From Cyclobacteriaceae bacterium HetDA_MAG_MS6 (lineage in GTDB: Bacteria; Bacteroidota; Bacteroidia; Cytophagales; Cyclobacteriaceae), in contig JAHCMJ010000011.1 in assembly GCA_019192485.1 (NCBI GenBank), positions 1-33,198 of the forward strand: a stretch of DNA of 33,198 nt, given 5' to 3'. The notes beneath the pieces were generated by a model. That model was not told the DNA's origin. It worked only from the letters and a program-made list of their open reading frames with translations, and ran no database searches. Within the stretch, counting starts at the first letter, position 1. Every line of letters begins with the position of its first letter. The position numbers and the translations under genes are program-made. Below are positions 2,400 through 33,198 of this stretch, piece after piece.

Positions 2400-3017
2400 T
2401 TGAGAGACGAAAACATCATTCCGCATGATCATGCCATTAAGCTAGACGATCGGGTCAAGCTGGGGGGACATCTGCCAAAACTGATCTGGTTTACTGGTCT
2501 TTCAGGGTCCGGCAAGTCAACACTGGCTGGCGCATTCGAAGTTGAGCTGTATAAGCTTGGTTATCGTACCTATATCCTGGATGGTGATAACGTTCGATCA
2601 GGACTGAATCAGGATCTAACATTCTCTGAAAAAGATAGAACAGAAAATATTCGTAGAATCGCCGAAGTCTCCAAGTTGTTTGTGGATGCGGGTATCGTTG
2701 TATTAACAGCGTTTATATCTCCTTTTGCAGAGGACCGGAAACAAGCTCGTGATCTGGTCGGTTCCAAAAACTTTGCAGAGATATTTGTCGATTGCCCTCT
2801 GGAGGTCTGTGAAGCCCGTGATGTAAAAGGATTATACAAAAAAGCCAGAGCCGGTGAAATCCCAAACTTTACTGGAATTAGTTCGCCATTCGAAGAGCCG
2901 ATTGACCCCGATGTCCATGTCAAGACGCATGAAGAAAGCCTTGAAGAAAGCCTTAGTAAACTTAAAAGTATAATTCTTCCTAAACTTGCACCTTCATTCC
3001 CTCCGGGGAGGGTCTAG
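2400..3017 (+). CDS. cysC: Adenylylsulfate (APS) kinase CysC
   Basis: A 205-residue kinase that phosphorylates APS to PAPS, the sulfuryl donor for sulfotransferases and a substrate of PAPS reductase. The P-loop is GLSGSGKST (33-41). Further family signs are the DGDNVR motif, the FISPF stretch and a [13 protein letters not shown] motif close to the substrate loop. The chosen start is a TTG: the encoded [10 protein letters not shown] matches the usual CysC N-terminus and no in-frame ATG lies nearby. The gene begins 24 bp after the dehydrogenase stop and is followed by cysD, so it belongs to a sulfate activation operon. The C-terminal SFPPGRV tail is slightly extended and G-rich at DNA level, possibly repeat-derived. 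Confidence 0.92.
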
Positions 3018-4010: not shown

Positions 4011-4367
4011 ATGAGAAAGTTTAAGGATTTGGAAATATGGCAATTGGGGAAAAAGCTTGCCATTGATATTTACAAATTGACCAACAGTATGCCTAAAGAG
4101 GAGGTCTATGGGATGACCTCTCAAATGCGTAGAGCAGCGGTATCTATTCCATCCAATATTTCGGAGGGCTGCAGTCGAAGGTCTAACAAGGAGTTTGCTC
4201 ACTATTTGGAAATATCATTAGGGTCATCTTTTGAGCTGGAGACGCAATTGATCATCACCGCTGAGATAGGTTTCCTCCATGACGGGGAGGTACAAGGATT
4301 AATAGGCGAAATCAACTTAATGCAAAAAAAGATTAATTCGTTCGTCACAACAGTAAGAAAACTTTGA
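4011..4367 (+). CDS. Four-helix-bundle protein, 23S rRNA intervening-sequence (S23) family
   Basis: A 118-residue protein of the family best known as the ORF inside intervening sequences of 23S rRNA genes in Leptospira and others. The family signature is clear: KFKDLEIWQLGKKLA at the N-terminus, SMPKEEVYGMTSQMRRAAVSIPSNISEG in the middle, then the helix with EFAHYLEISLGSSFELETQL. The biochemical role of the family is unknown. Here it sits between cysD and cysN with a repeat on each side, and its TGA stop is one base before the cysN ATG, so cysN translation may be coupled to it. This looks like an inserted cassette, not a sulfate-assimilation gene. Confidence 0.88.
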   Translation: MRKFKDLEIWQLGKKLAIDIYKLTNSMPKEEVYGMTSQMRRAAVSIPSNISEGCSRRSNKEFAHYLEISLGSSFELETQLIITAEIGFLHDGEVQGLIGEINLMQKKINSFVTTVRKL

Positions 4368-4368
4368 C

Positions 4369-5688
4369 ATGACAGACTCACCTAAAGCCCAAAGCCCAAA
4401 GCCCGATACCCAAAAGCCAAAAGCTAACGCCAATCACTATCTCGACATGGAATTGCTTCGCTTTACTACAGCTGGAAGCGTGGATGACGGTAAAAGTACG
4501 TTGATTGGAAGATTACTTTATGATTCCAAATCCATTTTTGAAGACCAGATAGAGCAGGTCAAACAATCCAGTGAAAGAAAGGGATTGACACACACCGACT
4601 TAGCGCTTTTAACCGATGGCTTAAAAGACGAACGCGAACAGGGAATTACTATCGACGTTGCCTATCGATATTTTGCTACACCGAAACGAAAGTTTATTAT
4701 AGCAGATACACCTGGTCATATTCAATATACTAGAAATATGGTGACCGGGGCTTCTACCGCAAATGTTGCCTTGATACTAGTAGATGCACGAAACGGCGTG
4801 GTAGAGCAAACCTGTAGACATTCGATCATCGCCGCACTCCTACAAATTCCACATGTGGTAGTCTGCGTGAATAAGATGGACCTCGTTGATTACAAGCAAG
4901 AAGTATTTGATCAGATCAAAACGGATTATGAACAATTTGCTTCCAAGCTTGATGTGAAAGATGTCCGATTTATTCCAATCAGTGCATTGAATGGTGATAA
5001 TGTGGTCAATCGCAGCGAAAAGATGACCTGGTATGAAGGGTCAACCCTACTGTACACTTTAGAAAACATCCATATCGGCAGTGATCACAATCATATCGAT
5101 TGCCGATTCCCAGTCCAGACAGTCATCCGACCAAAAAACGATGCGTACCATGATTACCGCGGTTATGCTGGCAGAATTGCAGGAGGCGTCTTTAAGCCTG
5201 GCGATTCAGTGACAGTGCTACCATCTGGATTTACCTCAAAGGTGAAAACTATCGAAACTTTCGAAGGCCCTCTTGAAGAAGCTTTTGCACCTATGTCAGT
5301 TACATTGACCCTCGAGGACAATATTGATGTGAGTAGGGGAGATATGATTGTTCGGGACAACAATCAGCCCAATCCGACACAGGATGTGGAGGTTATGTTA
5401 TGTTGGCTCAATAATAAAGGACCGATGCCACGGTCGAAATATACAATTAGGCATACTACTTCAGAAATGAAAAGTATGATCAAAGAAATTCGTTACAAAT
5501 TAGACATCAGTACTTTGCACCGTAACGAGGAAGATAAGAATATTGGAATGAATGATATCTGCAGGGTGAGTCTCAGAACGACCAAACCAATACTCTCAGA
5601 TTCGTATCGCAAAAACCGTCAAACAGGTAGTATTATTTTAGTAGACGACGCCACAAATGAGACTGTCGCAGCCGGGATGATTATTTGA
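4369..5688 (+). CDS. cysN: Sulfate adenylyltransferase subunit 1 (GTPase) CysN
   Basis: A 439-residue GTPase subunit of ATP sulfurylase; GTP hydrolysis drives APS formation by CysD. The G1 motif is GSVDDGKST (36-44), followed by the EREQGITIDVAYRYF switch I, DTPGH (G3) and NKMD (G4), then two beta-barrel EF-Tu-like domains. There is no fused CysC domain, consistent with the separate cysC upstream. The first ~22 residues (SPKAQSPKPDTQKPK...) are low-complexity and encoded by family B repeat DNA. The usual Bacteroidota protein starts just before YLDMELLRFTTAG. The ATG at 4369 is one base after the S23 stop. A later ATG at 4447 (M27) would remove the repeat-encoded tail but leave a very short N-terminus. 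Confidence 0.93.
   Translation: MTDSPKAQSPKPDTQKPKANANHYLDMELLRFTTAGSVDDGKSTLIGRLLYDSKSIFEDQIEQVKQSSERKGLTHTDLALLTDGLKDEREQGITIDVAYRYFATPKRKFIIADTPGHIQYTRNMVTGASTANVALILVDARNGVVEQTCRHSIIAALLQIPHVVVCVNKMDLVDYKQEVFDQIKTDYEQFASKLDVKDVRFIPISALNGDNVVNRSEKMTWYEGSTLLYTLENIHIGSDHNHIDCRFPVQTVIRPKNDAYHDYRGYAGRIAGGVFKPGDSVTVLPSGFTSKVKTIETFEGPLEEAFAPMSVTLTLEDNIDVSRGDMIVRDNNQPNPTQDVEVMLCWLNNKGPMPRSKYTIRHTTSEMKSMIKEIRYKLDISTLHRNEEDKNIGMNDICRVSLRTTKPILSDSYRKNRQTGSIILVDDATNETVAAGMII
4381..4426 (-). repeat. Repeat family B copy 2, inside the 5' end of cysN
   Basis: Tandem AAAGCCC units followed by ACCCAAAAGCCAAAAGC. On the minus strand this reads GGGCTTTGGGCTTTGGG..., the same style as the family B copies at 3.96, 31.16 and 32.42 kb. 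It is translated as the Ser/Pro/Lys-rich N-terminus of CysN. Confidence 0.6.
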
Positions 5689-5710: not shown

Positions 5711-5763
5711 TTCCTTCTCGGAGGGGCAGGGCCTGCCAGTCGGCAGACATGGGTGGGTTTAAA
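5711..5763 (+). repeat. Repeat family A copy 2 (long form)
   Basis: CCTTCTCGGAGGGGCAGG followed by a GC-rich inner palindrome (GCCTGCCAGTCGGCAGAC) and then ATGGGTGGGTTT. The inner CCTGCC..CGGCAG block is shared only with copy 4. It lies in the 210-bp gap after cysN. Confidence 0.65.
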
Positions 5764-5853: not shown

Positions 5854-5888
5854 AAATTCCCCTCCTGGGAGGGGTAGGGGTGGGTTAA
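5854..5888 (+). repeat. Repeat family A copy 3, 10 bp before the DUF559 start codon
   Basis: A perfect CCCCTCC-TGGG-AGGGG-type hairpin followed by TAGGGGTGGGTT. It points into the DUF559 gene and pairs with the inverted copy 4 at the end of the DUF559 domain. Confidence 0.75.
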
Positions 5889-5898
5889 TAGAAGAGAT

Positions 5899-7251
5899 AT
5901 GAAAAGAAAAATAATCCCCTACAATCCGCAACTAAGAGCATTGGCCAAAAAACTCCGTCAAAACATGACCTTATCAGAAGTTTTACTTTGGGATCAACTC
6001 AAGCAAAAAAAAATCAAAGGATTCGATTTTGATCGTCAGAGACCCATTGACGAATTCATAGTTGACTTCTACTGCAAAGATTTAATGTTGGCGATTGAAG
6101 TCGATGGAGGCAGTCATAATCACGAAGAGGAGCATCAATATGATAAAAAGCGTCAGCAAAGACTGGAAAGTCTTGGGGTACATTTCTTGAGATTTGATGA
6201 CAGGGAGGTTAAGAAAGATATTGATAATGTTATTCGCACTATTGAAATCTGGATTGAGAATAACAAACCCACCCTTGTCCGCCGGCAGGCAGGCCCTACC
6301 CCTCCCAGGAGGGGAGCAAATACTGAAATAGACATAGCCCCCTCAAAAGCAAAGTTATCTGAGCATTCAGGCACAAAATTCGACTCCTCTAAGGAGAGCT
6401 TGGTGTATGGTAGACCAGTTAATCCCATGAATAGCAAGACAGCGCACTTTACAGCCTCGAATCCCCTCCTGAGAGGGGTAGAGGTGGGTTCTTTAGACCT
6501 ACAGGACCTCCTGGAGACAGCAAAAAAGGCGGCTTTATCAGCCTCAAAACAGATTTTGAAGATTTACAACTCAGGAGATTTTTCAATAGAAGCCAAAGCT
6601 GATAACTCTCCTTTGACATTGGCAGATAAAGCTTCGCATGAAGCCATTGTAAAGATTTTGGAGGGAACTAATCTTCCTGTTTTAAGCGAGGAAGGAGCTT
6701 CTATCCCGTTCGAAGAAAGAAAAGATTGGGAATATTTCTGGATGATTGACCCGCTAGATGGCACAAAGGAATTTATCAAAAAAAACGGGGAGTTCACGGT
6801 AAACATTGCATTGATTCACCACCAGAAGCCAGTATTAGGTGTAGTAAATACTCCTGTTCTCAACGAGATGCACTGGGCCACCCAAGGACAAGGAGCCTTT
6901 AAGGATGGAAGTAAAATTCATGTAAACACCTTTGACTATCAAGATATAGACTTGAGGGTAGTAGCATCGAGATCACACTTAAACGCCGACACCGAAGAGT
7001 TCTTGAAGGCCTTGAATAGACCTTACATCGTTTCCAAAGGGAGTTCCTTGAAGCTCTTGATGGTCGCAGAAGGAAGGGCAGACCTTTACCCCAGATACGC
7101 TCCGACGATGGAGTGGGACACTGCCGCAGCGCAGATTATTGTAGAAGAAGCCGGTGGCAAAGTACTTCAAAGAGACTCACAAGACCCTGTTAGATATAAC
7201 AAGCAAGACCTCCTCAATCCTCATTTTCTGGTTACCGGCAATTCACTTTAG
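5899..7251 (+). CDS. cysQ: DUF559 nuclease domain fused in frame to CysQ (PAP phosphatase)
   Basis: One 450-codon open frame with two unrelated halves. Residues 1-120 are a complete DUF559 (Vsr/PD-(D/E)XK-like) protein: PYNPQLRALAKKLRQNMT, then GFDFDRQRPIDEFIVDFYC, then LAIEVDGGSH, with likely active-site acids D56, E67 and D69. Residues ~197-450 are CysQ, the Mg-dependent 3'(2'),5'-bisphosphate nucleotidase that clears PAP; DPLDGTKEF (284-292), PVLSEEG and the WDTAAAQIIVEEAGG region are present. The ~75-residue linker is encoded by family A repeats (PTPPRRG, NPLLRGVEVG) and is probably unstructured. CysQ could instead start internally at ATG 6427 (M177) or GTG 6484, which would give normal-length CysQ. 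Whether a fused protein is made is unknown; the absence of a stop is seen directly. Confidence 0.85.
   Translation: MKRKIIPYNPQLRALAKKLRQNMTLSEVLLWDQLKQKKIKGFDFDRQRPIDEFIVDFYCKDLMLAIEVDGGSHNHEEEHQYDKKRQQRLESLGVHFLRFDDREVKKDIDNVIRTIEIWIENNKPTLVRRQAGPTPPRRGANTEIDIAPSKAKLSEHSGTKFDSSKESLVYGRPVNPMNSKTAHFTASNPLLRGVEVGSLDLQDLLETAKKAALSASKQILKIYNSGDFSIEAKADNSPLTLADKASHEAIVKILEGTNLPVLSEEGASIPFEERKDWEYFWMIDPLDGTKEFIKKNGEFTVNIALIHHQKPVLGVVNTPVLNEMHWATQGQGAFKDGSKIHVNTFDYQDIDLRVVASRSHLNADTEEFLKALNRPYIVSKGSSLKLLMVAEGRADLYPRYAPTMEWDTAAAQIIVEEAGGKVLQRDSQDPVRYNKQDLLNPHFLVTGNSL
6265..6318 (-). repeat. Repeat family A copy 4 (long form, inverted)
   Basis: The reverse-strand version of family A: AAACCCACCC, then the inner GCCGGCAGGCAGGC block, then CTACCCCTCCCAGGAGGGG. 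It begins right where a normal DUF559 protein would end (after IEIWIENN) and is translated as NKPTLVRRQAGPTPPRRG. Confidence 0.75.
6459..6493 (+). repeat. Repeat family A copy 5, at the CysQ N-terminus
   Basis: CCCCTCCTGAGAGGGG hairpin followed by TAGAGGTGGGTT. It is translated as SNPLLRGVEVGS directly before the conserved CysQ start LDLQDLLETAKKAAL, so it has probably replaced the original cysQ start region. Confidence 0.7.
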
Positions 7252-7273
7252 TTATGCACTTCTAATTTTTCTC

Positions 7274-7309
7274 CAAATCCCCTACTAGGAGTGGCTAGAG
7301 TTGGGTTCT
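7274..7309 (+). repeat. Repeat family A copy 6 (degenerate)
   Basis: AAATCCCCTACTAGGAGTGG followed by CTAGAGTTGGGTTC. Same layout as the other copies but with a weakened hairpin. It lies between cysQ and the Uma2 gene, and the ORF track's GTG start for Uma2 falls inside it. Confidence 0.55.
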
Positions 7310-7365
7310 CAAAGAAATCTGTTTCGCAAAATACAACTATCTTTAAGATACAACTATTAAAATCA

Positions 7366-7914
7366 ATGATTGCCGGAGTTAAAAAACGATTAATTAAGGT
7401 AGATGAGTATTATCGAATGGCGGAAGTGGGCATCATCAAGCCTGGCGATCATGTTGAGTTGATCAAAGGAGAAATTTTAGAAATGAGCCCTATTGGAAGT
7501 AGACATGCTGGCACTGTTAAAAAGCTGAATAAGTTATTCAACAGGTTATTTGATGATCAAGTTGTAATTGGAATCCAGGACCCGATTCGCGTTGATGAAG
7601 AAAACGAACCTGAACCCGACGTATCCATACTCAGTCCTCGAGAAGACAGTTATACAGGTAATCACCCTACTCCAGAAGATGTCATGGCTGTCATTGAAGT
7701 AGCAGATTCCTCCTACGAATATGATTTTCATGTCAAGTCTGAACTTTATGCAAATGCTGACATTCCAGAATATTGGCTGATCAATCTTGAAAAAAATCGA
7801 ATTGAAGTATATACTTCTCCTGTTTCAGGAAGCTACGGAAAGAAACAAGATTTCTTAAAAGGAGACAAGATTCCATTCTTGGATGCTTTAATTCCGGCGA
7901 GTGATATCATATGA
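7366..7914 (+). CDS. Uma2 family (DUF820) endonuclease-fold protein
   Basis: A Uma2/DUF820 protein of the PD-(D/E)XK nuclease superfamily; function unknown in most genomes. Seen: DEYYRMAEVGIIKPGDHVELIKGEI at the N-terminus, the acid-containing EPEPDVSIL and VIEVADSS segments, and KSELYANADIPEYWLIN, which is the family's lysine/helix signature. The track begins at a GTG (7291), but its first 25 residues are translated from a family A repeat and do not resemble the family. The ATG at 7366 gives a normal 182-residue protein and is preferred. The gene follows cysQ by 114 bp and has no evident link to sulfur metabolism. Confidence 0.82.
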   Translation: MIAGVKKRLIKVDEYYRMAEVGIIKPGDHVELIKGEILEMSPIGSRHAGTVKKLNKLFNRLFDDQVVIGIQDPIRVDEENEPEPDVSILSPREDSYTGNHPTPEDVMAVIEVADSSYEYDFHVKSELYANADIPEYWLINLEKNRIEVYTSPVSGSYGKKQDFLKGDKIPFLDALIPASDII

Positions 7915-7969
7915 TCTCTGCCTAAGTGTAAGAACAATGCAAGCGAGCCTGGAGGGTGTCTCAAAAGAC

Positions 7970-8053
7970 GTCATTTCGACCGTAAAGGAGAAATCCTATG
8001 CTTTTAAGTACCGAATATCAATAATTTGAGATTTCTCGATTCCTCGAAATGAC
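7970..8053. repeat. Imperfect inverted repeat (family C), GTCATTTCGA arms
   Basis: The left arm starts GTCATTTCGACCGTAAAGG and ends GAGAAATC (7970-7995); the right arm is GATTTCTCGATTCCTCGAAATGAC (8030-8053). The arms are ~25 nt with a few mismatches and a ~34-nt loop. This is a common style of dispersed palindrome in Bacteroidota genomes (from memory, not checked here). It could form a long RNA hairpin after the Uma2 gene. Confidence 0.6.
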
Positions 8054-8381
8054 CGGGCCGCGCAGGCTTGACTTTTGGATCCTTTGTGTCAAGACAAAGG
8101 ATGATAATCCCAATAGCCCCTTTATTCAAATTTTAGAAGTTGGAAAGTTTCAAGAAAACGATCTAGCACGTGACGCTCTGGATTATGTGACCTGCTTTTA
8201 GCTTAAGGAATGGTTGGTTTGATATCTTGGGCTTACCAGAAAATGGCTTACGGTGAAGGAGGGTGGGATGTCCACGAATAGTGTGGGCCATTCGAAGGTT
8301 GTGCGATAGCAGGCTAAAGGGCTGGCTTTGAGCGATTTAGTGTGGAGAATGGGCTTTATTCGTGGTGCCTTTTTCTTTTGT

Positions 8382-8416
8382 TTCGTTTTCTTTTGGAGCA
8401 AGCAAAAGAAAATGAA
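8382..8416. terminator. Strong hairpin, possible bidirectional terminator
   Basis: TTCGTTTTCTTTTG and CAAAAGAAAATGAA form a 14-bp stem with one G-T pair and a 7-nt loop (GAGCAAG). It is A/T-rich with T-runs on one side of each strand, so it could act as a terminator. It may equally be a dispersed repeat unit. Confidence 0.45.
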
Positions 8417-8636
8417 ATGCCATCGTAGAACCTCAATTTCATATTAAAATGGATTTCACCGGGTATTGATTTAATGTTTTTTGGAAGTTAAAAGCTGTAT
8501 CCCAGTCATAAGACGATTTTTCATATTGCTCGTAGGAGGGCAGAGAAGAAAATTTGGAGGGGTGTAGATGGCATCTACTTAGAGTCTCAGATTTTTCCGG
8601 TCTGCGCAGGCCAAACCGATTTTGAGGCCGCTGCAT

Positions 8637-8658
8637 TACTTTTTGGAAATGAAAAGTA
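8637..8658. repeat. Short inverted repeat TACTTTT...AAAAGTA
   Basis: 7-bp perfect arms around an 8-nt loop, close in style to the hairpin at 8382. No T-run follows, so a terminator role is doubtful. Confidence 0.3.
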
Positions 8659-8744
8659 GAGGATCTGTTTCTTAACAATAATTTTAACTCATGAGGTGAA
8701 GAAGAAACCTGTTTGTGTTACTTCTCAAAACCCAGTCCATTTCA

Positions 8745-8774
8745 TTGCTCAATACTTTTTTCTCCATACCTTTG
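8745..8774 (+). promoter_or_regulatory. Bacteroidota-type promoter of the export operon
   Basis: A TTG at 8745-8747, exactly 19 bases, then TACCTTTG at 8767-8774. This matches the Bacteroidota sigma-factor consensus TTG-N19-TAnnTTTG. Transcription would start near 8780, leaving a leader of about 45 nt before the ATG at 8827. It fits the first gene after a long non-coding spacer. Confidence 0.7.
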
Positions 8775-8826
8775 CAGCCGATTTTAAATATCAATACTTC
8801 CTTGCGACGAAGTTATTGGCGGGTGA

Positions 8827-12741: not shown

Positions 12742-14212
12742 ATGAAAAGAGAAAGAAGATATTTCGACAAGGATTATGAAGAGATGGTGGTCATTCTATG
12801 CTTGACTGGAGAATCCCCAAAAGAAGTAGCCGATGAACTTAGGAATAAGACCTGAGTTGGTAAGACGTTGGAGAAGGGAATATGTAGTACTCCCTAAAAA
12901 TCGGGCCATTGGCTTAGTTAAAATTGAAACGGCTAAATTGACTAAGACCGATGAAGAGAACACGACGAAAATTTACGCCTGACTTCAAAGCCAGAGTGGC
13001 TGTTGAAGCGATCAAAGAACACCGAACACTTGCAGAACTTTCGAAGCATTTTGAAGTAAGTCCTGTGGTGATTTCCAGATGGAAAAAAGAGTTTCTGGAG
13101 AATATGTCTAAGGCCTTTGGAGAAAAATCTGATAACGAGGAAGGTACCGTCGATACAGAGAAGCTCTATGCCCAAATAGGTCAGCTGAAGGTGGAGAATG
13201 ATTTTCTAAAAAAAAGCTTGAAGAAAACCGGGCTATGAGTGAACATAACCCCAGATCAGGAGGAAATAGCGAGACTTAAGAAGGAATTAAAGGATGCTCA
13301 AATCGAACGAGAGATCATAAAAAGGTCATAAGTATCTTCTCTAAGGGAGACAACAAATACTCAAATTCATCAGGGATATAACCACATGTTTGGAGTTTAG
13401 AAGATGTGTAAAGTTTTCAAGATAAGTCGAAGTGGTTACTATGACTGGTTGGGTCGAAATCAGGACATTATACGAAGGCAGTAAATGCAGGTATGGGAGT
13501 CCTAAGATTACCGATGAACTTCGGGACTTTGGTTGGGTTGTTTCTCGCCCTCGAGTAGCTCGGATCATACGTTCAGAGCCTAGAAGTATAATCTGCAAAA
13601 AGTTCAGAGGGATGACCACAGATTCTCGCCATAACCTTCCAGTAGCTGGAAATCTCCTGAACAGAGACTTTGAAGCCATTGCCCCATCGCAAAAATGGGT
13701 TTCCGATATTACTTATATCTCAACAGCTCAGGGTTGAGTGTACCCGACCATGGTGGTGGACTTGTTTGACCAAAAGATCATCGGATGGTCAGTGAGTACT
13801 TCCATGACTACTCAGGCTGCCATATTGGCCACCTGGAGAATGGCCAGATTAAAACACAAGGATAGCACCTAATATGATATTCCATTCAGATCAAGGTATT
13901 CAATATGCCTCCTACGCATTTAGTGATAAGCTCAAGAGCTAAGGGGTCATACAGAGCATGAGCAGACAAGGAAATTGTTGGAACAATGCCGTAGCAGAGA
14001 GCTTCTTCAAAAACTAAAGTCTGAAATGGTCAAACATATGAAGTTTTACTCCACCCTTCATGTCAGAAAATAACTGTTCGAGTTCATAGAAATCTGGTAC
14101 AGTAGAAAAAGAAAACACGCATACTTGGAATGTAAAACTCCCAAGCAATGTGGAAATGTAAATTATTCAAAATGCGCTTGACTATCTGTCCAGTTTTTTG
14201 TTGCAAATCCAC
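12742..14212 (+). pseudogene. Decayed IS3-family insertion sequence (orfA + orfB)
   Basis: Remains of an IS3-type transposase in several frames. OrfA begins MKRERRYFDKDYEEMVV and contains LTGESPKEVADEL; one extra base near 12840 shifts the frame to GIRPELVRRWRREY. It resumes at 13239 with TPDQEEIARLKKELKDAQIE. OrfB pieces include FKISRSGYYDWL, SQKWVSDITYIS (first catalytic Asp), VVDLFDQKIIGWS, then in other frames FHSDQGIQYAS-like and AESFFK-like stretches with the remaining D and E. At least six stops or shifts make it inactive. A likely right end is CTGTCCAGTTTTTTGTTGCA at 14186-14205. I found no matching left inverted repeat, so the left end may be lost. Confidence 0.8.
12951..13238 (+). 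CDS. IS3-family transposase OrfA (orphan, nested)
   Basis: An intact 95-residue OrfA-type helix-turn-helix protein: RRKFTPDFKARVAVEAIKEHRTLAELSKHFEVSPVVISRWKKEF, then a coiled-coil tail LYAQIGQLKVENDFLKKSL. It belongs to a different IS3 subgroup from the surrounding orfA and has no orfB of its own. It sits exactly where the first orfA breaks off and resumes. It may be the leftover of a nested insertion, or of recombination between two elements. It is probably not functional alone, because OrfA needs the OrfB catalytic part. Confidence 0.75.
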   Translation: MKRTRRKFTPDFKARVAVEAIKEHRTLAELSKHFEVSPVVISRWKKEFLENMSKAFGEKSDNEEGTVDTEKLYAQIGQLKVENDFLKKSLKKTGL

Positions 14213-32792: not shown

Positions 32793-33198
32793 ATGAATCA
32801 GGAGAATTACCATTTCGAGATACTGCCTTCCTCACAGAAAGAACTGTGGTTAAAGTTGAGCCAGATCCCAAAAGATTTTGTCTTATATGGAGGGACAGCT
32901 ATAGCAATCAGGCTTGGACATAGGGAGTCCATCGATTTTGATTTTTTTTCCAATAAAGCATTCAATACCAATATGCTTTATCAAGAAATTGATTTTTTAA
33001 AGAATGGCAAAGTAATTCAAAGTGAAAAAAACACATTAAGTGCTATTGTCAAGGAAGGTCAAGGAAATGTCAAAGTGTCTTTTTTTGGAAACCTGGGGTT
33101 GAAACAAATCGAGCAACCGGACGACATGAATAATGGTATAAAAATGGCCTCCCTTATCGATCTCTTAGGGATGAAATGTGCAACGGTGCCACAACGCG
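32793..33198 (+). CDS. Nucleotidyltransferase, AbiEii/AbiGii toxin family (3' end outside the window)
   Basis: An open frame from ATG 32793 to the window end (135 complete codons, no stop), absent from the ORF track because it is unfinished. Early residues FVLYGGTAIAIRLGHRESIDFDFFS are the AbiEii-type nucleotidyltransferase motif: GG-T-A, then the metal-binding D-x-D in SIDFDFF. Later, MASLIDLLGMKC matches the usual helix after the strand region. AbiEii proteins are toxins of type IV-like toxin-antitoxin and phage-defence systems. Some family members may have other roles, and with only the N-terminal half visible the call is at family level. Confidence 0.75.
   Translation, partial: MNQENYHFEILPSSQKELWLKLSQIPKDFVLYGGTAIAIRLGHRESIDFDFFSNKAFNTNMLYQEIDFLKNGKVIQSEKNTLSAIVKEGQGNVKVSFFGNLGLKQIEQPDDMNNGIKMASLIDLLGMKCATVPQR

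Follow-up and report, generated by a model that had tools for sequence, protein, structure and literature searches.

A DUF559 nuclease gene bracketed by inverted palindromes as a candidate nuclease-driven mobile element

The cysN-cysQ locus

The stretch of DNA analysed here (the window) comprises 33,198 nucleotides of contig JAHCMJ010000011.1 from Cyclobacteriaceae bacterium HetDA_MAG_MS6, whose draft genome amounts to 4.69 Mb in 460 contigs. Some 800 bp separate cysN, which ends at 5688, from cysQ and hold, in this order, two forward copies of a short palindromic repeat (copies 2 and 3), a small gene of the DUF559 family, and two further copies in reverse and forward orientation (copies 4 and 5, respectively). 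The features of the repeat family and of the gene are as follows.

1035-1072, +, palindrome copy 1, solo, intergenic
2998-3013, +, degenerate palindrome at the cysC 3' end, 2 mismatches
5711-5760, +, palindrome copy 2, outer left, broken by the nested palindrome GCCTGCCAGTCGGCAGAC
5855-5887, +, palindrome copy 3, left bracket, AATTCCCCTCCTGGGAGGGGTAGGGGTGGGTTA, ending 11 bp before the ATG at 5899; hairpin CCCCTCC-TG-GGAGGGG plus the G-run tail TAGGGGTGGGTT, which is directed into the DUF559 gene
5899-~6270, +, DUF559 (PF04480) gene for a nuclease of the Vsr/EDxHD fold, Pfam E = 2e-30
5932-6246, Pfam DUF559 domain, residues 12-116
5977-5979, 6064-6066 and 6097-6099, +, candidate catalytic residues E27, D56 and E67, invariant
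6103-6105, 6115-6117 and 6142-6144, +, candidate catalytic residues D69, H73 and D82, invariant
6265-6315, -, palindrome copy 4, right bracket, in opposite orientation, tail directed into the DUF559 gene; holds a nested second palindrome
6462-6490, +, palindrome copy 5, whose right end abuts the first native cysQ codons (judged against the CysQ start MHKLDLQNLL of genome G543)
7273-7306, +, palindrome copy 6, a decayed solo copy after cysQ and before a Uma2 gene

The original prediction placed the DUF559 gene between palindromes of one family in opposite orientation, and the coordinates of the two brackets (5855-5887, +; 6265-6315, -) bear this out; the four further copies that it noted nearby are also clear (1035-1072, 5711-5760, 6462-6490 and 7273-7306), with the degenerate one at 2998-3013 in addition. 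Delimited more narrowly, the first and last of these four are 1041-1056 and 7278-7306. Its statement that copy 4 begins exactly at the end of the DUF559 domain needs correcting, the actual start lying 18 bp past the domain (6265, the domain ending at 6246). The hairpin and first tail bases of copy 4 (22 nt, 6294-6315) are 100% complementary to 5858-5879 of copy 3, and copies 2 and 4 form a 48-bp inverted pair at 85% (5713-5760 and 6265-6312) by way of a common nested palindrome, GCCTGCCnGyCGGCrGAC. This small palindrome sits in the tails of both copies (5731-5749 and 6275-6293), possibly as a repeat-in-repeat insertion. Copies 4 and 5 are a pair with tails outward, the sole REPIN-like doublet in the window.

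A search of the window with CCCCTCCNNGGAGGGG at up to 3 mismatches returned 7 matches against 0.37 expected from shuffling, and no shuffle reached 7, while the hairpin plus tail, again at up to 3 mismatches, was found at only three places in the whole genome, two of them adjoining the window DUF559 gene. Copy 3 matches exactly the patterns used for the genome-wide and phylum-wide searches, and the genome-wide palindrome counts are counts from such pattern searches. Hairpin energies of single copies showed no excess over shuffles, and no terminator-like signal was found at the palindromes.

A single open frame without a stop (5899-7251, +; 450 codons) runs through DUF559, copy 4, copy 5 and CysQ (Inositol_P family); the unit is intergenic, yet in frame with cysQ. 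The only other DUF559 gene of the genome (locus L001), located between hsdS and hsdR, is similarly bracketed by a different palindrome, ATTCCCCCTTATCAAGGGGGCTAGGGGGAT, which is built like the window type and encodes the C-terminus of that DUF559 protein.

Several other features of the window are recorded as observations in their own right. A 23S_rRNA_IVP four-helix-bundle gene (4011-4367) lies between cysD and cysN as another small hitch-hiker of the cys operon and is followed closely by a short tandem repeat (AAAGCCCAAAGCCC...). A gene for a putative endonuclease of the Uma2 family (7291-7914) starts right behind copy 6, and at 7970-8056 an inverted pair, GTCATTTCGACCGTAAAGGAGAAATC / GAGATTTCTCGATTCCTCGAAATGACC, follows CGTC and looks like a published CGTC-tagged REP doublet beside the DUF559 cluster. 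A 15-bp hairpin, TTTCGTTTTCTTTTG/CAAAAGAAAATGAAA, occurs at 8381-8417 within a long gene-poor stretch (~7920-8820). Farther away are apparently broken fragments of an IS3-type transposase (12951-13737; HTH_Tnp_1 and HTH_21 matches) and an AbiEii-like nucleotidyltransferase gene (type IV toxin family; 32793-33197) cut by the window end.

A compact Vsr-like nuclease

The protein was predicted to be a Vsr-like nuclease and not a Y1 transposase, with which the results agree: Pfam gives DUF559 and MTES_1575 only, the fold matches 3hrl, 3r3p and Vsr, and no HuH (Y1) tyrosine transposase was found in the unit. The AlphaFold2 model (pLDDT 91) matched only three PDB chains at E <= 0.001 in Foldseek, namely 3hrl, which is itself from the DUF559 family, and two chains of 3r3p, in which the homing endonuclease I-Bth0305I is represented by its catalytic domain. 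The 3r3p match (E = 3e-4, TM 0.64) agrees with a profile search (E = 3e-5); E. coli Vsr is a weaker structural match. DUF559 is a single domain of ~110 residues in a protein of ~120 aa, without an extended DNA-binding region, and it gives weak PADLOC matches to a methyl-directed enzyme.

Across 47 homologues 14 columns are invariant (R20, E27, W31, F44, Q47, D56, E67, D69, G70, H73, D82, R98, F99 and V111). Considered as an E-D-x-H-D active site, the six candidate catalytic residues (E27, D56, E67, D69, H73, D82) keep their order, but the alignment to 3r3p leaves D56, D69 and H73 unpaired with the same residues. Pairs of DUF559 genes have dN/dS of 0.04-0.12, a sign of strong purifying selection, and therefore the gene is kept functional. 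Nuclease activity finds support in the literature: a Caulobacter DUF559 protein (VsrA) causes SOS induction and DNA damage in vivo when a methylase is missing (PMC12907096), and a Thermosynechococcus DUF559 gene has been assigned to the EDxHD homing family (PMC9403480).

Hairpins are enriched on both sides of DUF559 genes

PF04480 was found in 222 of 396 Bacteroidota genomes. A sample of 79 DUF559 loci, mostly stand-alone genes, was compared with 173 neighbouring genes as controls. The enrichment of repeats at DUF559 genes, a check set beforehand, was met: strict pyrimidine/purine hairpins lie no more than 150 bp away on both sides of 23 of the 79 short DUF559 genes and of none of the controls (Fisher 2e-13). 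Hairpins are also densest at the two DUF559 flanks, well above the surroundings. Comparison of the left flank with the reverse complement of the right (score >= 15) gave a match in 47% of DUF559 loci, in 0/173 controls, and in 1% of comparisons between loci of other genera; direct flank matches are as frequent as inverted ones because the repeats are palindromic. With a relaxed hairpin detector the DUF559 counts were 23/78 and 27/75, the controls remaining at 0/173, and 14 of the 173 controls had one downstream hairpin. Inspection of the flanks by eye suggests that the true bracketed fraction is higher than the detectors report.

Tail-inward and tail-outward arrangements both occur; by the relaxed detector the tails nearest the DUF559 gene point mostly inward (12/23 and 21/27). 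On flank inspection no GTAG or CGTC tag is conserved at the hairpin foot, which reads TAGGGG in many loci, not in all, with CTAGGGG, ATTCAGGGG and ACAGGG also present.

The palindrome type follows the nuclease clade

Similar DUF559 copies within one genome have common palindromes (examples from three genomes are at 93%, 85% and 65% identity: G078, G122 and G166, respectively), and dissimilar copies mostly do not; in G166, the palindrome of locus L047 matches that of L104 in another species and not those of its genome-mates. Among named genomes, the window protein has its 80 closest relatives (54-76% identity) in groups that include Chlorobiota, Ignavibacteria, Brocadia, Scalindua, Neomarinimicrobiota, cyanobacteria and an acidobacterium. 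The window stem and tail stand on both sides of 26 of 79 close relatives, as against 3 of 79 other DUF559 loci, and outside Bacteroidota this holds for Chlorobiota, Brocadia, Scalindua, Ignavibacteriales, Neomarinimicrobiota and one cyanobacterium; proteins 54-76% identical are bracketed by the window type in Bacteroidota, Planctomycetota, Neomarinimicrobiota and one cyanobacterium.

The exact window palindrome occurs in 18 of 396 genomes (its reversed control in 0), 16 of which hold DUF559 (base rate 56%; p = 0.003) and 15 close DUF559 relatives (p = 5e-5), both without phylogenetic correction; co-occurrence in family f15, likewise not corrected for phylogeny, has a Spearman coefficient of 0.65. 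The palindrome was present without a detected DUF559 gene in one genome of family f15 and in two of the phylum set, and the copy number of the cognate palindrome is modest, with 5-17 exact matches in the richer genomes. Judged by sequence alone, the palindrome tracks the DUF559 clade, not the host, across hosts and phyla.

Filled and empty sites

The check for empty-site polymorphism, also set beforehand, was fulfilled at four loci with filled and empty alleles: cysN-cysQ, the pdxJ-era site, the L059 site and metH. In a genome of the same family as the window (G543), the cysN-cysQ gap is 3 bp and has no palindrome, and a unit of the window type, with the same palindromes and a DUF559 gene at 70% DNA identity, is carried at another locus. 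Genome G078 holds two units on different contigs that are 85% identical over ~488 bp, from palindrome through gene to palindrome, and unrelated outside. At the pdxJ-era site the palindrome is missing from one species, three species show only a doublet, decayed in one of these, and three have doublet-DUF559-doublet; at the L059 site one doublet in G054 stands against doublet-DUF559-doublet in G163. For these single-doublet alleles, loss of DUF559 by recombination between the flanking doublets is an equally good reading. A further site surveyed in five species has a two-palindrome unit in two and lacks it in three. In genus g69 five of the eight species contain an inverted doublet of ~120 bp in many places, and one other has no match to it; solo palindromes and doublets are more numerous there than DUF559 genes, and dispersed gene-less inverted doublets are present in family f15 as well.

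No target-site duplications or uniform junctions were seen in the alignments of units and empty sites. A DUF559 gene of G405 (locus L377, contig C96) split by a palindrome was considered as a palindrome insertion and rejected: the insert is a MITE that holds a palindrome pair and has its own TIRs (TGCTGTTCC...GGAACAGCA, a 13-bp TIR TGCTGTTCCAA) and an apparent CTAG duplication, and is therefore no proof of palindrome mobility. In another member of the family the cysN-cysQ gap (L373; G561, C18, 331500-335000) contains a GxxExxY gene, PDDEXK_3-like from its sequence, between the arms of a separate inverted repeat, AACCGCAAAGACGCAAAGGCGC ... GCGCCTCTGCGCCTTAGCGGTGAGGTT; this may be a second element of nuclease plus repeat that uses this site.

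Many of the very long DUF559 frames proved to be in-frame insertions into MetH, LeuRS, HsdR and DNA methylases that carry the full DUF559 domain and have the palindromes translated as linkers; DUF559 proteins above 1000 aa, intended as negative controls, were dropped for this reason. In one locus (L008) the sequence suggests an HsdS insertion, although Pfam detects nothing but DUF559, and in another (L029) DUF559 follows a CobB/CobQ-like domain. A survey of metH in one genus searched 121 genomes, of which 111 matched; of 30 loci read base by base, 8 have the in-frame DUF559-palindrome insert and 22 are empty, and for one filled allele the empty relatives have flanks ~90-92% identical. By inspection, about eight codons of the empty linker are missing from the filled alleles. 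A simple loss would therefore leave behind a scar, and on this account gain is favoured over loss, the replaced linker being the sole argument for it; the tree of the 30 loci requires 2 changes, or 3 if only losses are allowed, and so leaves gain versus loss undecided. The empty metH and cysN-cysQ alleles are without a palindrome, and therefore gene and palindromes arrive together. In the DUF559-domain tree a single clade (support 0.93) unites 12 of the 13 copies borne by MetH; the three carried by LeuRS also group together (0.89), within the same larger group as the MetH clade, while HsdR-borne copies arose at least twice.

Sequence comparison alone thus establishes palindrome-DUF559-palindrome as a discrete segment found at different places, with sites that exist with and without it. 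By such comparison, too, gene-less inverted pairs resembling REPINs are dispersed in DUF559-holding genomes, and the unit also stands in frame inside conserved genes. The suggestion that the nuclease gene and its palindromes are a mobile unit is supported by the enrichment and by the filled and empty sites.

The E. coli gene ycjD

The DUF559 gene ycjD of E. coli has a TTAGGGTGAGGGG-tailed hairpin, the tail being a G-run, downstream of it, between ycjD and fabI; the gene is not bracketed on both sides by this repeat, whose median count over 5395 E. coli genomes is 16 places per genome. Directly upstream of ycjD in K-12 (L036, 5760-5815) there is a near-perfect palindrome, CACCTCATTCTGACAAAAGATTAAATCTTGTCAGAATGAGGTG, of a type unlike the downstream repeat. 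Of 5395 matching E. coli genomes, 3363 have one place that spans at least 80% of a sapF-ycjD-fabI query. Presence and absence of ycjD was set aside as a source of clean empty sites: in both other genomes examined, E. coli 536 and O157:H7 (L117, L118), the position after sapF that ycjD occupies in K-12 is taken by an efflux operon (MFS, outer-membrane and RND genes).

How the unit may spread

The reading that we prefer, as the probable though not secure one, is that the DUF559 gene and its palindromes constitute a small nuclease-driven mobile element, the reaction itself being inferred. The element would be apparently undescribed and selfish, spread over several bacterial phyla and able to lie in frame even within essential genes, with an enzyme that resembles a homing endonuclease and not a transposase. 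DUF559 (Vsr/EDxHD fold) would be its motor, recognising the cognate palindrome or a target and nicking or cutting there; repair from a palindrome-bearing DNA copy, with or without the gene, would then install a new copy in a homing-like manner, and REPIN-like doublets would move in trans as non-autonomous elements. In the window, such a unit would have entered the gap between cysN and cysQ, immediately at the start of cysQ. The loyalty of MetH and LeuRS clades to their sites is what homing predicts, and scattered intergenic sites with REPIN-like doublets are what REP-type spread predicts. That DUF559 itself moves DNA by cutting the hairpin is an inference that the sequence does not demonstrate, with no cleavage data for palindromes or target sites. 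Counting against the preferred reading are the need for a single mechanism to cover both tail-inward and tail-outward forms, the modest palindrome copy numbers, the genomes with the palindrome and no detected DUF559, the absence of any observed target-site duplication or uniform junction, a metH tree of 2 changes or 3 losses, and the lack in DUF559 of the long DNA-binding extension of phage EDxHD enzymes.

True transposition, in which DUF559 would bind folded single-stranded hairpins, excise the unit or doublet and join it elsewhere as a transposase with strand transfer, as proposed for RAYTs, would account for an anatomy shared with REPIN/RAYT systems (inverted end hairpins, dispersed doublets and clade-specific ends; PMC3116915) and for scattered intergenic sites, which need no homologous flanks; we hold it unlikely, though not negligible, for the fold is without HuH or other strand-transfer chemistry, its matches being hydrolytic endonucleases, and the site loyalty of MetH and LeuRS clades is unlike free transposition. 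DUF559 might instead be a passenger, using palindromes spread by another enzyme as landing sites or travelling along with them. A preference for palindromic repeats is indeed seen in some insertion sequences (ISPpu9 in REPs, PMC8450116), and in g69 solo palindromes and doublets outnumber DUF559 genes; the joint arrival of gene and palindromes, the tracking of DUF559 clades by palindrome type across phyla and the failure of any other gene to recur in units nevertheless make this quite unlikely.

We give little credence to DUF559 as a restriction-like nuclease kept for defence against phage, with the palindromes as protective or regulatory sites: the several copies within or next to type I restriction and methylase genes, the DNA damage attributed to the Caulobacter protein when a methylase is missing (PMC12907096) and the weak PADLOC matches speak for it, but an in-frame place within MetH or LeuRS is not a setting for defence and most copies have no methylase partner. 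Scarcely credible, and disfavoured, is the idea that ordinary transcription terminators or mRNA-stabilising hairpins flank a small gene by chance; hairpins at 3' ends of genes are common (14/173 controls have one downstream in the relaxed test), but terminator-like signal is missing at the palindromes, and hairpins stand on both sides of the gene, an arrangement seen in none of the 173 controls, and in frame inside MetH, LeuRS and HsdR.

If the nuclease-driven element is generalised, it would be a new class in several phyla, with a Vsr-fold nuclease of ~120 residues as its sole motor and pyrimidine/purine hairpins as its cognate ends, and its non-autonomous offspring would make up a share of the untagged palindromic repeats that lack any known transposase, among them possibly the TTAGGGTGAGGGG-tailed repeat next to ycjD in E. 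coli; on this wider claim we are evenly divided. Many bacterial genomes are full of short palindromic repeats, for most classes of which no spreading enzyme is known. DUF559 is a candidate enzyme, and a testable one, for one large class of them, with E. coli ycjD as a tractable model; it remains of 'unknown function' in Pfam despite a solved structure and its presence in over half of the sampled Bacteroidota genomes. The MetH and LeuRS inserts, central enzymes carrying an apparent selfish nuclease domain, matter for annotation, and the site-loyal clades make the homing question directly testable.

Comparison with known systems

No earlier description linking DUF559 to palindromic repeats was found in the open-access literature, so far as its texts were accessible and with subscription papers outside the scope, and within that literature REPtron-like anatomy had not been combined with a homing-like enzyme. 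Caulobacter VsrA and the Thermosynechococcus gene belong to the DUF559 family, and the accessible parts of their descriptions mention neither palindromic ends nor repeat-unit mobility (PMC12907096, PMC9403480). E. coli YcjD resembles the unit in having a hairpin with a G-run tail downstream of the DUF559 gene, and differs in that the TTAGGGTGAGGGG-tailed repeat is not on both sides. Rickettsia palindromic elements and CGTC-tagged REPs (PMC3733652, PMC10969869) also lie in frame in coding genes, as the palindromes of other DUF559 loci do, but carry no gene, and the stems of the DUF559 units are other pyrimidine/purine hairpins. A 2013 survey (PMC3733652) found CGTC REPs without a dedicated transposase and raised the question of whether untagged repeats go with specific DNA-binding proteins.

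EDxHD (Vsr-like) homing endonucleases of the I-Bth0305I type (PMC3943268) have the same catalytic fold, and filled and empty alleles of a conserved gene (metH) and clades loyal to one target gene are further points of likeness. Unlike them, the DUF559 gene is in no self-splicing intron, its product is a single domain of ~120 aa without the long DNA-binding extension of the phage enzymes, and its unit has palindromic ends and gene-less repeat relatives. From REPIN/RAYT systems (REPtrons; PMC3116915, PMC3733652, PMC8266576) the unit departs in its enzyme, a Vsr-fold endonuclease with no relation to the HuH tyrosine transposase, in the want of a conserved GTAG or CGTC tag, and in that the DUF559 gene itself occurs in several copies, also in frame inside other genes. 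The analogy to REP and RAYT with a different enzyme, drawn in the original prediction, is supported: in both, a nuclease-type gene is flanked by cognate short palindromes, the palindrome co-varies with the enzyme, and gene-less inverted doublets are dispersed in the genome.
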